Assembly: GCA_017396395.1 (NCBI GenBank)
Contig: JAFQMF010000013.1
Location: 1-41,160 of the forward strand
Length of the DNA stretch: 41,160 nt
Direction of reading: 5' to 3'
From: Clostridia bacterium
Lineage (GTDB): Bacteria; Bacillota; Clostridia; RUG12999
Shown: positions 12,969 through 16,969 of the stretch, in pieces
Position numbering within the stretch: the stretch's first letter is position 1
Layout: the number at the start of each line of letters is the position of its first letter
Translations under genes and position numbers: made by a program
Notes under the pieces: generated by a model
The model's input: the letters and a program-made list of their open reading frames with translations, nothing else
What the model was told of the DNA's origin: nothing
Databases searched by the model: none

Positions 12969-13541
12969 ATGAAAACAATTAAAGACAAACAACTTGTAGT
13001 AGGTGCTGACTTTGCAGGTTTTCCACTTAAGGAAGCTGTTGTAGCACACTTAAAGGCAAAAGGCTGGACAATTACCGACCTTGGTGTAAAGGCTGATTCT
13101 GACCCTAACGACACAGACCTTATGTTCCATAGAGTAGGTCTTAGAGTAGGTGCGGCAATCTCAGAGGGCGAATTTGAAAGAGCTCTTCTTTTCTGCGGAA
13201 CAGGTATGGGTATTCACATAGCTGCAAGCAAATGTCCTCATGTTCATGCAGGCGTTGTTGAAAGTGTTCCTGCTGCTCTTCGTGCAATAACAGGCAACGG
13301 CGTAAATGTACTTGCTATGGGTGCTTTTTATGTTGCTCCCGCAATGGGCTGTGATATTGCAGATGCATATCTTAACGCAGAACTTGGCAGTGGCTATGAA
13401 TGGTGGAAAAACTTCTATGAATTCCACAAGCTTGCTATTGATGAGTTAGAAGAATTTGATTATGAAACTTACAAAAAGAACGGCTTTAAGGTAAACAAAT
13501 TAGGAGATTTCCCATTAAAACTTGAAACAAAACCTGAATAA
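12969..13541 (+). CDS. RpiB/LacA/LacB family sugar-phosphate isomerase
   Basis: A 190-residue protein of the ribose-5-phosphate isomerase B / galactose-6-phosphate isomerase fold. The active-site loop FCGTGMGIHIAASK (about 70-83, with the conserved Cys) and NVLAMGAF are clear. Two features set it apart from standard RpiB of about 150 residues: the usual D-H-A-G near the N terminus is D-F-A-G, and there is an extra C-terminal segment of about 40 residues. It probably belongs to a divergent subfamily acting on another sugar phosphate; the substrate is unknown. Start ATG 12969 follows AAAGGGG. Confidence 0.85.
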   Translation: MKTIKDKQLVVGADFAGFPLKEAVVAHLKAKGWTITDLGVKADSDPNDTDLMFHRVGLRVGAAISEGEFERALLFCGTGMGIHIAASKCPHVHAGVVESVPAALRAITGNGVNVLAMGAFYVAPAMGCDIADAYLNAELGSGYEWWKNFYEFHKLAIDELEEFDYETYKKNGFKVNKLGDFPLKLETKPE

Positions 13542-13548
13542 TAAAGAT

Positions 13549-13580
13549 AAAACGGCTGAAGTAAAATTCAGCCGTTTTTT
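13549..13580. terminator. Terminator between isomerase and terminase genes
   Basis: 12-bp perfect stem AAAACGGCTGAA (13549-13560) / complement (13567-13578), loop GTAAAA, followed by T tract on the plus strand. The A4 on the other side lets it also serve the convergent terminase operon. Confidence 0.88.
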
Positions 13581-13614: not shown

Positions 13615-14949
13615 TTACGCCAGCGGATTATACACAGGGGACTCTATAAGCCCTCGTTTTACAGGCTTTATAGGGTCACTCATAAGAAAATATCTTGTAT
13701 CGTCATAAATATGGTCCTCTCCGCTTGTGTTTACATCTTCTATGTCAAGGTCATCATACACAAGAGCAGGCACTGTTCTGATAAAATCCTTGCAGGTATT
13801 AAAAACATACATCATAGGATATCCCTCATCGTCAAAAGCAAGTCTGTAGTGCAGCTGCATTTTTCCGGCTATGCGGGAGTTGTTTCCCTTTTCAAAATAC
13901 AGTCCTGCTGATTCCATAAGGTTAATTATACTTCCCTCCAGCCCTCGTGAGCTGTCCCATATGGCAGGGTCAGCAATTCCGATAATTCTGTTTCCTTCCT
14001 CATATTTGTTTTCAATTTCACGGATTTTTTCTGCCATTTTTTTAGGCTCCCACTTAAGTCCCACATTAGGTTCTCCGGTGCACCCATACATTTCTCTGTA
14101 TCTGTAAGCTCTCCCCTCAAAATCTACTGCCCACCAGCCTACTGAAAAAGGTCTTGAATACCCAAAGTCAAAGCTTCTATATCTTTTCCACTCTTTTGGA
14201 ATAGTAAAAGGATTTATTACATGGGTAAATTTTCTGTTATCATACCCTTGTGGATTGTTACGGAACTCTGCAAATACTTGTCCGCTAAAGCTATCCCAAT
14301 CGCCATACAATAGTGCCTTTTTTTCCTGCTGGGGCAGCATAGAAAGACTTGCCACATAGTTGGGGTCCTGACTTAAAAGTATTTTATTGTCAAATACTGT
14401 AGAAGGAACAAATATTCTTGACCTTTTATATTCTTTTCCTTCAATGTTCACACTTTCGTAATAGGTAGTCATAGGTACCTTCCCTGTTATAAACCTGTCC
14501 TTTACCCAAGCGTGACCTACCCCTCCCGGATTACATGTAGCACGGATATAACACCTTGTACCAGGACCGCCGGGACGATTTCTGGAAAACATATAGGAAT
14601 ACTCATCCCAAGTAAAATGTGTCAGTTCATCAAAACCGATGAAATCATATCTTTTCCCCTGATATTTTACTCTGTCCTGTCTGTGCTGCATACTGCCAAA
14701 ATATATTTTAGCACCGCCCGGAAAAGTCCAACAATGATTATTTCCATTATACTTAGCATCAGGATATGCCTTGCTGTATAATTCCATTGAACGGTCAATA
14801 AGTCCTGAACATTCCGGATATGTTTTTCGGAATATTATCGCTCTGTAATGAGGAATATGTACCTGCCTTAGTGCCTCTGCCAGAAGAGCATCACTTTTTC
14901 CTCCACCTGCCGCACCCCCATATAGTGCTTCGTCTTCAAAACGGGACAT
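13615..14949 (-). CDS. Phage terminase large subunit, N-terminal start ambiguous
   Basis: A packaging motor ATPase-nuclease that cuts and translocates phage DNA. From ATG 14949 (444 residues) it shows Walker A GGAAGGGKS (11-19), Walker B FIGFDE (103-108), the TCNPGG coupling motif (138-143) and a C-terminal RNase H-like nuclease with all three acidic residues (D261, D327, D416). The protein is therefore apparently functional. However, in-frame codons upstream encode IIWQPQPKQAEF, the adenine-binding motif that normally precedes Walker A in this family. No ATG, GTG or TTG is available before an in-frame TGA, so the true start may be a rare ATT (14985) or ATA codon. It is last in a minus-strand operon; no portal or capsid gene follows. 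Confidence 0.92.
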   Translation of the reverse strand: MSRFEDEALYGGAAGGGKSDALLAEALRQVHIPHYRAIIFRKTYPECSGLIDRSMELYSKAYPDAKYNGNNHCWTFPGGAKIYFGSMQHRQDRVKYQGKRYDFIGFDELTHFTWDEYSYMFSRNRPGGPGTRCYIRATCNPGGVGHAWVKDRFITGKVPMTTYYESVNIEGKEYKRSRIFVPSTVFDNKILLSQDPNYVASLSMLPQQEKKALLYGDWDSFSGQVFAEFRNNPQGYDNRKFTHVINPFTIPKEWKRYRSFDFGYSRPFSVGWWAVDFEGRAYRYREMYGCTGEPNVGLKWEPKKMAEKIREIENKYEEGNRIIGIADPAIWDSSRGLEGSIINLMESAGLYFEKGNNSRIAGKMQLHYRLAFDDEGYPMMYVFNTCKDFIRTVPALVYDDLDIEDVNTSGEDHIYDDTRYFLMSDPIKPVKRGLIESPVYNPLA

Positions 14950-14993
14950 AAACTCCGCCTGTTTAGGCTGAGGCTGCCATATAATTTTCTTTT

Positions 14994-15290
14994 CTATTCC
15001 TCTTCGCCCCCCTCATCAGGGCTTATAGTTTCCGGAATTATAATTTCTCCCTGAGGTTTGGTTTCCTTATCAGATGTTTCCCCTGCTTTATTTTTCATAT
15101 TAACAATCTTTTCAAGTGCGGTTACTACCTCTAAAATACGCTTTGTGTCAAGGGTTTCCAGCTTTGTTTCATAAATTTCATCCTTCAGCTTTGCAACATG
15201 GTAGTTAAACTGTCCTCCCCCAAGTGCTTCATAGACTATTTTTAAAATTTTATCTGCCGTGTTAATTTCATTTGCCTTTTTTCTACTCAC
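14994..15290 (-). CDS. Small acidic protein upstream of the terminase, possible small-subunit analogue
   Basis: 98 residues: a helical N-terminal half (ADKILKIVYEALGG, then KRILEVVTALEKIVNM) and an acidic, probably disordered tail ending DEGGEEE. Position directly before the large terminase gene is where phages carry the small terminase subunit, and size and helical character fit, but I see no diagnostic helix-turn-helix. Its start overlaps the previous gene by 4 bases (ATGA), so the two are translationally coupled. Confidence 0.6.
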   Translation of the reverse strand: MSRKKANEINTADKILKIVYEALGGGQFNYHVAKLKDEIYETKLETLDTKRILEVVTALEKIVNMKNKAGETSDKETKPQGEIIIPETISPDEGGEEE

Positions 15291-15646
15291 CTGATTCTCT
15301 CTTTTTCCATCCTTTCTCTATAGTAACTCATATAATGAATTACATTTTCTCTGTAATTTACAAGTTCATAATCTCTGAGAGATTTCATAGATACATTTAA
15401 CTCTTTTATAAACTCCGAAATAAGTTTAATCATTTCGTATCTTCTTCCGTAACTCTCAGAAAAATATTTAGGCTCTTTTTTCATTTTTGAAAGTGCAAAG
15501 GCTTCTCTTACTGTCTGCTCATTTACCTCTAGCGGACTTACTCCGTTACGGATTGCATACAAAGCCTCGTCCGCCGTTAAAAAACAAGGGTAAATTATTG
15601 CAAGAAGAAGTGCATAATAGTTTTCTTCCAATGGGTCTTTTGTCAT
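15287..15646 (-). CDS. Hypothetical protein of the phage-derived operon
   Basis: 119 residues, mostly helical, with many Tyr and Arg (for example ESYGRRYEMIKLISEF and HYMSYYRERMEKERIR), soluble, no family recognised. I start it at ATG 15646, six bases after AGAGGT; the ATG six bases earlier abuts the ribosome-binding site. It lies 10 bp after the Prp-like gene and overlaps the next gene by 4 bp, inside a single operon. It is probably a phage structural or packaging accessory protein, inferred from position only. Confidence 0.55.
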   Translation of the reverse strand: MTKDPLEENYYALLLAIIYPCFLTADEALYAIRNGVSPLEVNEQTVREAFALSKMKKEPKYFSESYGRRYEMIKLISEFIKELNVSMKSLRDYELVNYRENVIHYMSYYRERMEKERIR

Positions 15647-15656
15647 ATGCATACCT

Positions 15657-15968
15657 CTAATTTCTGCGTAACCTTACATAATGCGGGTAGGTATCGCAAA
15701 TACTTTTCAGTCCCAGTAAAATTGTATTTAATGCCACTTGCACCTCTTTTTTGGAATATCCCCTTATAATCTCAATACTCATCCCCATATCATCGTCTGT
15801 TACCATAACGCCAACTCTCTTTATTTCAGATAATGACAAAGCAAGAGTGTACATAAGTGCAGATACCCCGCTGCAAACTTGCTCTCCTTTTTTTCCGTTA
15901 CCTGCGTGTCCCACGGCAGCAACAGAGCGTATTGCATCATTTTCTCTATAAACTCTTATGTCAATCAT
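15657..15968 (-). CDS. Prp-like cysteine protease, located in a phage-type operon
   Basis: A 103-residue protein of the ribosomal-processing cysteine protease (Prp/YsxB) family. The active-site signature is present as VGHAGNGKKGEQVCSGVSAL, giving His21 and Cys32 as the catalytic pair. True Prp cleaves the N-terminal extension of ribosomal protein L27 and normally sits between rplU and rpmA. Here it instead opens an operon ending in a terminase, so it is likely a phage-type homologue that could process capsid or scaffold proteins. Start ATG 15968 follows AAGGAG. The host Prp is presumably elsewhere. Confidence 0.85.
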   Translation of the reverse strand: MIDIRVYRENDAIRSVAAVGHAGNGKKGEQVCSGVSALMYTLALSLSEIKRVGVMVTDDDMGMSIEIIRGYSKKEVQVALNTILLGLKSICDTYPHYVRLRRN

Positions 15969-16027
15969 TTTATTTCTCCTTATTGATTTTAAGTTCAATT
16001 TATTTGTTGTTGCTTCCCTTAAGTACA

Positions 16028-16056
16028 ATTATATCATATTTTTATTAGAAAGTCAA
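16028..16056 (-). promoter_or_regulatory. Strong promoter of the prp-terminase operon
   Basis: Minus strand TTGACT (16051-16056), 17-bp spacer, TATAAT (16028-16033). Near-consensus, which suits an operon held off by a repressor. Confidence 0.78.
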
Positions 16057-16065
16057 GTTTCTTGA
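16053..16065. promoter_or_regulatory. Candidate repressor operator TCAAG-TTT-CTTGA
   Basis: A 13-bp perfect interrupted palindrome overlapping the -35 box of the prp-terminase promoter, between the divergent repressor and operon. A dimeric XRE repressor could block the promoter here. Only one copy was found; loosely similar TTAAGTnCAATT sequences occur closer to prp. Confidence 0.4.
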
Positions 16066-16086
16066 ACATTTTTTTGTTTTATACTC

Positions 16087-16115
16087 TTGCAAAACTAAAA
16101 AAAATATGTTAAAAT
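16087..16115 (+). promoter_or_regulatory. Promoter of the repressor gene
   Basis: TTGCAA (16087-16092), 17-bp spacer, TAAAAT (16110-16115), 52 bp before the repressor ATG. Confidence 0.65.
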
Positions 16116-16167
16116 ATAAAAAGTAATGTGTTAAATCTTATGCATATACCACAGGGAGGTCTTAAAT

Positions 16168-16836
16168 ATGGGAGAAAGAAAAAATGCCGTTGCTGCTTCT
16201 CAGGTTTTCTCATTAACCTTAAAAAAATTGCGTAAATCCCGCAATTTAACTCAGGAAGAATTAGGAAATGCTCTGAAGGTTAAAAAAAGCTGTATATCAA
16301 ATTATGAAAAAGGCGTAAGTATGCCTGATATTTCACGTCTTATTGAAATTGCAAACTTTTTTCATGTGCAAAATATAGGACAACTCCTTGGTTACACTCA
16401 AACAAACTCAGTAAAGGAAGATGAGCAGGATAACAGATTTGTTCCTATTGTTGGGGTAATAGAATACGAAAAAGACCCTGTATATCCTGGAAATATTGTA
16501 GATGATATGACACTTCCGAACTCAAATCTCCATACAGGCGAGTTTTTTGGATTTAATATGCATGACAATTCTATGGACCGCTCAGGCATAAAAAAAGGAG
16601 TTACACTTGTTTTTTCTAAAACCTCTCTTGTTTCTACCGGTGATATTGTTCTTATTGCAAAGGAAAATGAACCACCCTATATCCGCCGAATATATGTAAT
16701 GGAGGATGGCAGTATTGCACTTCAGCCTGATTCTTCAGATAAAAGTTATCTGCCTGTTATTCTTTCACCCGATAGAGATAATTACAATATTGTAGGCAGA
16801 CTTGCATATATTTACACTACTAAAGAAGCTTTATAA
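16168..16836 (+). CDS. XRE-family repressor with degenerate S24 peptidase domain
   Basis: A 222-residue phage-type repressor: helix-turn-helix at about 15-70 (LTQEELGNALKVKKSCISNYE) and an S24/LexA-like C-terminal domain (about 92-215). The serine is present (HDNSMD, S135). The lysine expected in the PYIRRIYV strand appears to be Arg (R173/R174), and the Ala-Gly cleavage site usually found after VPIVG is replaced by VIEYEK. It therefore probably dimerises through this domain but cannot self-cleave in the SOS response. ATG 16168 is preceded by AGGGAGGT. It is divergent from the prp-terminase operon and likely controls it and itself. Confidence 0.9.
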   Translation: MGERKNAVAASQVFSLTLKKLRKSRNLTQEELGNALKVKKSCISNYEKGVSMPDISRLIEIANFFHVQNIGQLLGYTQTNSVKEDEQDNRFVPIVGVIEYEKDPVYPGNIVDDMTLPNSNLHTGEFFGFNMHDNSMDRSGIKKGVTLVFSKTSLVSTGDIVLIAKENEPPYIRRIYVMEDGSIALQPDSSDKSYLPVILSPDRDNYNIVGRLAYIYTTKEAL

Positions 16837-16840
16837 TTGC

Positions 16841-16884
16841 ATTTTTAACAAAAAACTGAAATATTTTTAACAAAAAACTGAAAT
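16841..16884. repeat. 22-bp tandem repeat, two perfect copies plus a degenerate third
   Basis: ATTTTTAACAAAAAACTGAA followed by AT is repeated at 16841-16862 and 16863-16884, with a shortened, diverged copy to about 16899. It lies between the repressor stop and the rpsT promoter. There is no stem-loop; it may be a slippage product or an UP-element-like AT tract. Confidence 0.8.
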
Positions 16885-16899
16885 ATTTTTAAAAAACAC

Positions 16900-16928: not shown

Positions 16929-16969
16929 TGTAACTGTATGATTTTAAACTATAATGCGAGGTGAAATCT

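Follow-up and report, generated by a model that had tools for sequence, protein, structure and literature searches.

The window analysed here is the whole 41,160-nucleotide stretch at positions 1 to 41,160 of contig JAFQMF010000013.1 (assembly GCA_017396395.1, a Clostridia bacterium of the RUG12999 lineage). Between rpiB (ending at 13541) and rpsT (starting at 16961) it carries a phage-derived module, in which an S24-type repressor gene on the forward strand is divergent from four reverse-strand genes encoding, in order, a Prp-type protease, a 121-aa protein, a 98-aa protein and the large terminase TerL. This module very probably encodes the packaging and regulation functions of a domesticated, podovirus-derived gene transfer agent (GTA) that is spread over several chromosomal loci and is related to FpGTA, the GTA of Faecalibacterium. 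At the sequence level we find three intact loci, their vertical conservation, the loss of a helix-turn-helix (HTH) domain from the small terminase (TerS), cleavage motifs of the Prp type, and one motif common to the promoters of two loci. A GTA-like assembly is well supported by these features; gene transfer would be its function by analogy with FpGTA, while expression, control of the system by the repressor, particle formation, random packaging and DNA delivery are predicted from the gene content.

Packaging genes in the window and particle genes elsewhere

We compared nine genomes of the family, in genera g1 (four species, including the window's own), g2 and g3; the window's genome is labelled G000 and its family relatives G001-G008 (L-numbers denote loci, and C-numbers contigs). 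Every open reading frame (ORF) of the module is open, at the positions that the first-pass annotation of the window had given. TerL (13615-14997, reverse strand; PF03237) combines an ATPase and a nuclease and matches Terminase_6N (E = 1.7e-15) and phrog_979 (1e-57); the protease (15657-15968, reverse strand; PF04327) matches Peptidase_Prp (1.2e-16), as the first pass had anticipated; and the repressor (16168-16836, forward strand) matches HTH_3 and Peptidase_S24. The first pass had noted that portal, capsid, integrase and lysis genes are all absent from this locus, which is correct, and had described the module as being without the rest of a phage, which is wrong for the genome as a whole.

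To search the nine genomes, portal and capsid profiles were made from related proteins, most of them from other families, together with those of a prophage in G007; genome-wide searches covered TerL, portal, capsid and Prp. In G000 the portal gene (profile match 1.8e-220; phrog_156, 4e-65) is located at C12:227451-229100 (a contig of 241 kb), between htpG and spoIVA. A second cluster, at C14:44749-52634 (a contig of 161 kb) beside ymdB/spoVS, encodes a scaffold protein, the capsid protein (profile match 2.2e-156; phrog_1357, 1e-82), a 92-aa protein, a collagen fibre, a neck protein, an internal virion protein (phrog_511), a 74-aa protein, an amidase (Amidase_3, 3e-55), a 146-aa protein and a holin (PF05105, 8e-28). 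Both loci lie more than 10 kb from the contig ends, among housekeeping genes, and the stops flagged inside two of the portal/capsid-locus matches are terminal stops. TerL is present in seven of the nine genomes, and exactly those seven hold one such portal and one such capsid gene, on other contigs; beyond these single copies, the G007 prophage contributes an extra portal/capsid pair, and G001 has a distant portal. The phage-derived structural, packaging and lysis genes of a GTA are present and intact, and the structural genes do not form one mobile block with an integrase, as they would in an intact prophage. No replication or integration genes accompany the three loci in the seven genomes, as judged by inspection and by homology to the G007 prophage set, with no genome-wide integrase search made.

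The first-pass annotation had left two small proteins of the operon without a function; this still holds for the 121-aa protein, and no longer for the 98-aa protein (14994-15290, reverse strand). By itself the latter has no family match, but the profile of its family (108 columns) aligns over its whole length to columns 77-215 of a phage TerS profile, reaching the end of that profile (probability 95.5, E = 1.4e-8); by this alignment it is a small terminase missing the N-terminal HTH DNA-binding domain. A Pfam scan returned weak to clear HTH matches in most of 10 sampled phage TerS proteins (one gave a Terminase_2 match, and one had no HTH match), and in none of the 10 TerS proteins sampled from the window family, other lineages with split loci, and Faecalibacterium. 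A TerS without an N-terminal DNA-binding domain was described for RcGTA, the GTA of Rhodobacter capsulatus, and proposed as a defining character of GTA-type TerS (Sherlock et al., 2019; PMC6854486); the TerS of the window family likewise lacks a sequence-specific DNA-binding domain. Such a loss would explain the packaging of any DNA. It may be convergent, since the window TerS shows no significant similarity to that of FpGTA or to those of the other split lineages.

Inheritance, capsid processing and regulation

The packaging, portal and capsid loci are unlinked in all seven TerL-containing genomes, which represent two genera, and their neighbours are shared: rpsT adjoins the repressor gene in G000, G001, G005 and G007 (thus in both genera), htpG lies near the portal gene in G000 and in genus g3, spoIVA adjoins the portal gene in all four g1 species, and ymdB adjoins the capsid cluster in three species. 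In G002 and G003 the packaging genes are located beside the his operon and the repressor gene beside mutS2, which makes four loci and indicates that scattering went further there. Domestication, which the first pass had raised as a possibility, is supported by the retention in sister genomes of the whole set of repressor, Prp, 121-aa protein, TerS and TerL, next to rpsT in both genera; within the rpiB-to-rpsT interval, which had been put forward for comparison, the side joining rpsT and the repressor is conserved and the other flank varies between species. The sister genomes have neither a full prophage at this site nor an inactivating mutation, and no internal stop was found in the GTA genes of any genome.

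For the pair G007-G008, the ratio of nonsynonymous to synonymous substitution rates (dN/dS) is 0.014 for TerL, 0.058 for portal, 0.019 for capsid, 0.038 for neck, 0.088 for the internal virion protein and 0.024 for holin, and 0.029 for the core gene htpG; with frames open family-wide and core-like dN/dS, the module is not random debris, as had been surmised. All family members group in a single clade of the TerL tree (SH-aLRT 98), within which the branching matches the two genera; its neighbour is the G007 prophage, most IMG/VR sequences lie at a distance, and no IMG/VR TerL is more than 65% identical. The loci have been inherited vertically, at fixed positions in the chromosome and under purifying selection, as expected of a GTA. 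The nearest phage relative is the full prophage on G007:C11 (L081, L032, L082), whose TerL is 73% identical to that of the window; genes resembling integrases and antirepressors are also present there, as is an ORF longer than 2,200 aa. The sister genome G001 has another prophage (C112, L083), whose portal is distant.

The Prp of the module is a second one: a housekeeping Prp is encoded elsewhere with L27, whose N-terminus is KISIQFFAHKKG. The His/Cys pair of the module Prp is intact in the window's genus (alignment to the S. aureus Prp 4peo), and capsid N-termini in this group of phages and GTAs bear a Prp-type motif similar to that of L27 (FDLQLFAD and FNIQLFAD in Faecalibacterium). A looser motif pattern, picked after inspection of the sequences (a strict regular expression missed most cases), is found within residues 1-30 of 55 out of 84 distinct capsids, compared with 3, 1, 0, 1, and 0 in the next five 30-aa intervals. 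In the window's genus the capsid protein starts with a MNLxKFG motif. In genus g3 the capsid motif is lost, and the Prp is missing both catalytic residues (GRADTGRGGVAVES), with its gene still in the operon (G008 L036:1995-2333); this dead Prp has no PDB match. That both were lost together supports a role of Prp in capsid processing, and we infer that Prp is the maturation protease of the capsid protein. In Staphylococcus aureus phage 80alpha, Prp cleaves the capsid and scaffold proteins, and the N-terminal motif of the capsid protein ends F|A (PMC5744158). The two systems share this type of motif; unlike the window's system, with its second Prp in the packaging operon, 80alpha relies on the host Prp.

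The repressor faces a strong promoter of the Prp-TerS-TerL operon, as the first pass had proposed: TTGACT-N17-TATAAT with a TG (16056-16028, reverse strand) is near-consensus (11 of 12 matches), ranks top of the scan, and is conserved in four species. A palindrome, TCAAG-N3-CTTGA (16053-16065), covers the -35 box and is a candidate operator. The repressor is of phage type in its domains, and its S24 domain is degenerate: at what we take, from LexA and CI, to be the catalytic dyad, the Ser is kept and the Lys replaced by Arg, and there is no Ala/Cys-Gly cleavage site. Among four aligned repressors Arg replaces the Lys in all four, the Ser is also lost in two (genus g3), and a clear cleavage site is missing from each. 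Self-cleavage driven by RecA is therefore an unlikely route of induction.

In G002, and likewise in G003, a 17-bp motif, TGTCGNAANTTGCGATA, is matched exactly at just two places in the genome, the portal promoter and the capsid promoter, which ties these loci together in two species; G001 has one exact match, at the portal promoter. The regulatory link of the portal and capsid loci to the packaging locus appears weaker. A palindrome akin to the prp site, CAAG-N3-CTTG, is found at the portal promoters of two sister species; in its full form it is unique to the portal promoter in G002 and G003, the prp site being a variant, and the comparison is only suggestive of one operator common to all loci. 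A conserved block resembling a promoter, AAAAAGCAGAAAACATTAA ... TTAAAATGC, is present in the leader of the scaffold-capsid operon (L068 10580-10944, L070, L072, L074), as is an inverted repeat (GTGCC...GGCAC type) that may fold into a hairpin in the RNA.

Relation to FpGTA and alternative explanations

To our knowledge, detailed accounts of GTAs come almost exclusively from Alphaproteobacteria. RcGTA belongs to that class and is of HK97-type, siphovirus-like ancestry; PBSX of Bacillus subtilis occupies a single prophage-like locus with a long tail, unlike the scattered system of the window. By description, the window's system resembles RcGTA in being multi-locus and vertically inherited, with a TerS lacking the N-terminal DNA-binding domain (PMC6854486), and resembles PBSX as a GTA-like element of a Gram-positive bacterium (PMC12946183). 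FpGTA consists of two operons and makes particles of about 40 nm with 8.4-9 kb of host DNA, their proteins confirmed by proteomics (Borodovich et al., 2026; PMC12946183); FpGTA-type particles were seen by electron microscopy and proteomics in F. prausnitzii ATCC 27766 (PMC12946183). The Faecalibacterium loci compared here, some of them from genomes also used in that paper, such as F. prausnitzii ATCC 27768 (L151), a strain related to ATCC 27766, encode a TerL 60-61% identical to the window's, a portal about 40% identical and a capsid about 42% identical. The two systems also share an HTH-less TerS, separate lysis genes, podovirus-type parts, and the lack of integrase and replication genes. They differ in that operon I of FpGTA holds TerS, TerL, portal, scaffold and capsid together in this order, whereas the window family has three unlinked loci; only the window system has its own Prp, a repressor and the unique 121-aa protein, and FpGTA sits in a different clade of the TerL tree. 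The window element is thus a relative of FpGTA in a different arrangement. In the literature searched we found no further paper on FpGTA-like elements, and PMC12946183 contains no description of the window lineage.

Ten further genomes (G060-G069), picked because their TerL locus lacks other genes, each contain one portal and one capsid gene, at least one of them apart from TerL (in draft assemblies). In G024 and G058 (L039, L040) TerL and portal lie beside secD/secF with an HTH regulator, and the capsid gene is on a different contig. The TerL proteins of these split lineages take at least three to four separate positions in the tree, a count limited by draft assembly. We lean slightly toward a broader view, in which one podovirus group gave rise to scattered GTAs through repeated domestication in gut Clostridia: separate places in the tree are held by the window family, the L103/L107/L118/L125/L097/L114 clade, the L092/L093/L096 clade, L090, G024/G058 and Faecalibacterium, and TerS would have lost its DNA-binding domain repeatedly while the genes split stepwise into two to four loci that common promoter motifs still connect. 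In four other clostridial metagenome-assembled genomes (MAGs; L103, L107, L118, L125) a conserved module of HTH regulator, TerS and TerL stands alone among housekeeping genes, by zinc-ribbon proteins.

The first report of a podovirus-like GTA in gut Gram-positives dates from January 2026; the window family adds a second, clearly vertically inherited and more scattered lineage, and the further clostridial lineages supply candidate split GTAs. An HTH-less TerS together with unlinked, single-copy TerL, portal and capsid genes gives a signature by which such GTAs can be searched for, and lone terminase genes labelled as debris may belong to working machines. The path from virus to host organ becomes testable: which genes split, how co-regulation holds, and whether the loss of DNA recognition recurs.

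We propose that relief of the repressor would allow the promoter at 16056-16028 to drive production of Prp, the 121-aa protein, the HTH-less TerS and TerL, with the portal supplied by the second locus, and scaffold, capsid, neck, fibre, endolysin and holin by the third. Prp would trim the N-terminus of the capsid protein; TerS, lacking a specific DNA-binding domain, would let TerL load on any chromosomal DNA and fill the heads; and holin and amidase would lyse the cell. A gut bacterium may, in short, keep a domesticated virus for shipping its own DNA.

Several observations weigh against a GTA. All three loci are missing from genus g2 (two incomplete genomes); purifying selection acts on prophage genes too, and dN/dS alone cannot tell GTA from phage; exact copies of TGTCGNAANTTGCGATA are limited to three sister genomes, the motif being degenerate in G000, where the capsid promoter has a 2-mismatch site and the 1-mismatch sites lie elsewhere; and all genomes are drafts, mostly MAGs. 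A killing particle of the PBSX kind, moreover, would leave an identical gene set. Such a device, packaging host DNA in particles that kill rivals or lyse the producer and deliver nothing, would suit the retained fibre and endolysin, and PMC12946183 leaves the same question open for FpGTA. However, the genomes retain portal, TerS and TerL alike, with TerL conserved best (78-90% identity within the family), which argues for selection on DNA packaging, unneeded by a pure killer; we regard the device as unlikely but not negligible.

That the loci are unlinked, and that phages of the group exist (such as that in G007; L032, TerL 73% identical), might suggest dispersed relics of several unrelated prophages, open by chance; but there is one copy per part, functions do not overlap, neighbours are shared across species and genera, no copy is broken, dN/dS is core-like and a promoter motif is common to two loci, and we consider such relics very improbable. 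The first-pass annotation had suggested a satellite or a domesticated packaging-nuclease module, and the module is better read as one piece of a particle-making system. A satellite (like the phage-inducible chromosomal islands and S. aureus pathogenicity islands) that hijacks a helper phage with its own terminase would suit the compact block of repressor and terminase, but is hard to reconcile with vertical inheritance, conserved neighbours, host-encoded capsid and lysis genes, and a TerS whose DNA recognition is lost rather than changed; nor is there an integrase or replication gene at the locus (att repeats were not systematically searched), and we give this explanation almost no credence. 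Recruitment of TerL alone for a cellular role, in chromosome cleavage or as a defence nuclease, would fit its being the most conserved gene, apart from portal and capsid in L103, L107, L118 and L125; since portal and capsid are always elsewhere in the same genomes, it is just as improbable.

Start of TerL and remaining features

The ATPase and nuclease residues of TerL, which the first pass had called intact, are so by conservation (alignment A3), but the 444-aa call from the first ATG (14949) leaves out the adenine-binding Q-motif IIWQPQPKQ. The frame must begin upstream of this ATG, because the Q-motif sits there; in all four g1 species it is open, with no ATG, GTG, or TTG before the Q-motif. 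The one codon resembling a start is an ATA (14997-14995 in the window), which shares bases with the TerS stop in all four species (ATAG or ATAA) and is likely the TerL start; AUA initiation with translational coupling to the TerS stop is possible. In genus g3 an ATG is present at the start instead. A programmed frameshift was set aside: there is no conserved slippery sequence, whereas the ATA overlapping the TerS stop is conserved. A PDB sequence search with TerL returned no match.

The 121-aa protein (15287-15652, reverse strand) is all-helical, has no assigned role and no match in Pfam, PHROG or NCBIfam; it is conserved in the modules of family members, absent from 80 viral loci, and confined to this family. 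AlphaFold models of this protein (pLDDT 51) and of the 98-aa TerS (pLDDT 55) are poor. A hairpin between TerL and rpiB (13549-13578) is a predicted terminator, located just after the end of rpiB, in line with the earlier view that the neighbour has its own terminator. Between the repressor gene and rpsT, a 22-bp tandem repeat (TTTTTAACAAAAAACTGAAATA, two copies) occupies 16842-16885. The SpoIVA protein encoded next to the portal gene in G000 (L067:10304-11533, C12) is shortened to 409 aa and corresponds to residues 1-399 of the protein in sister species, which is 488 aa long, and sporulation may have been lost in the window's genome.

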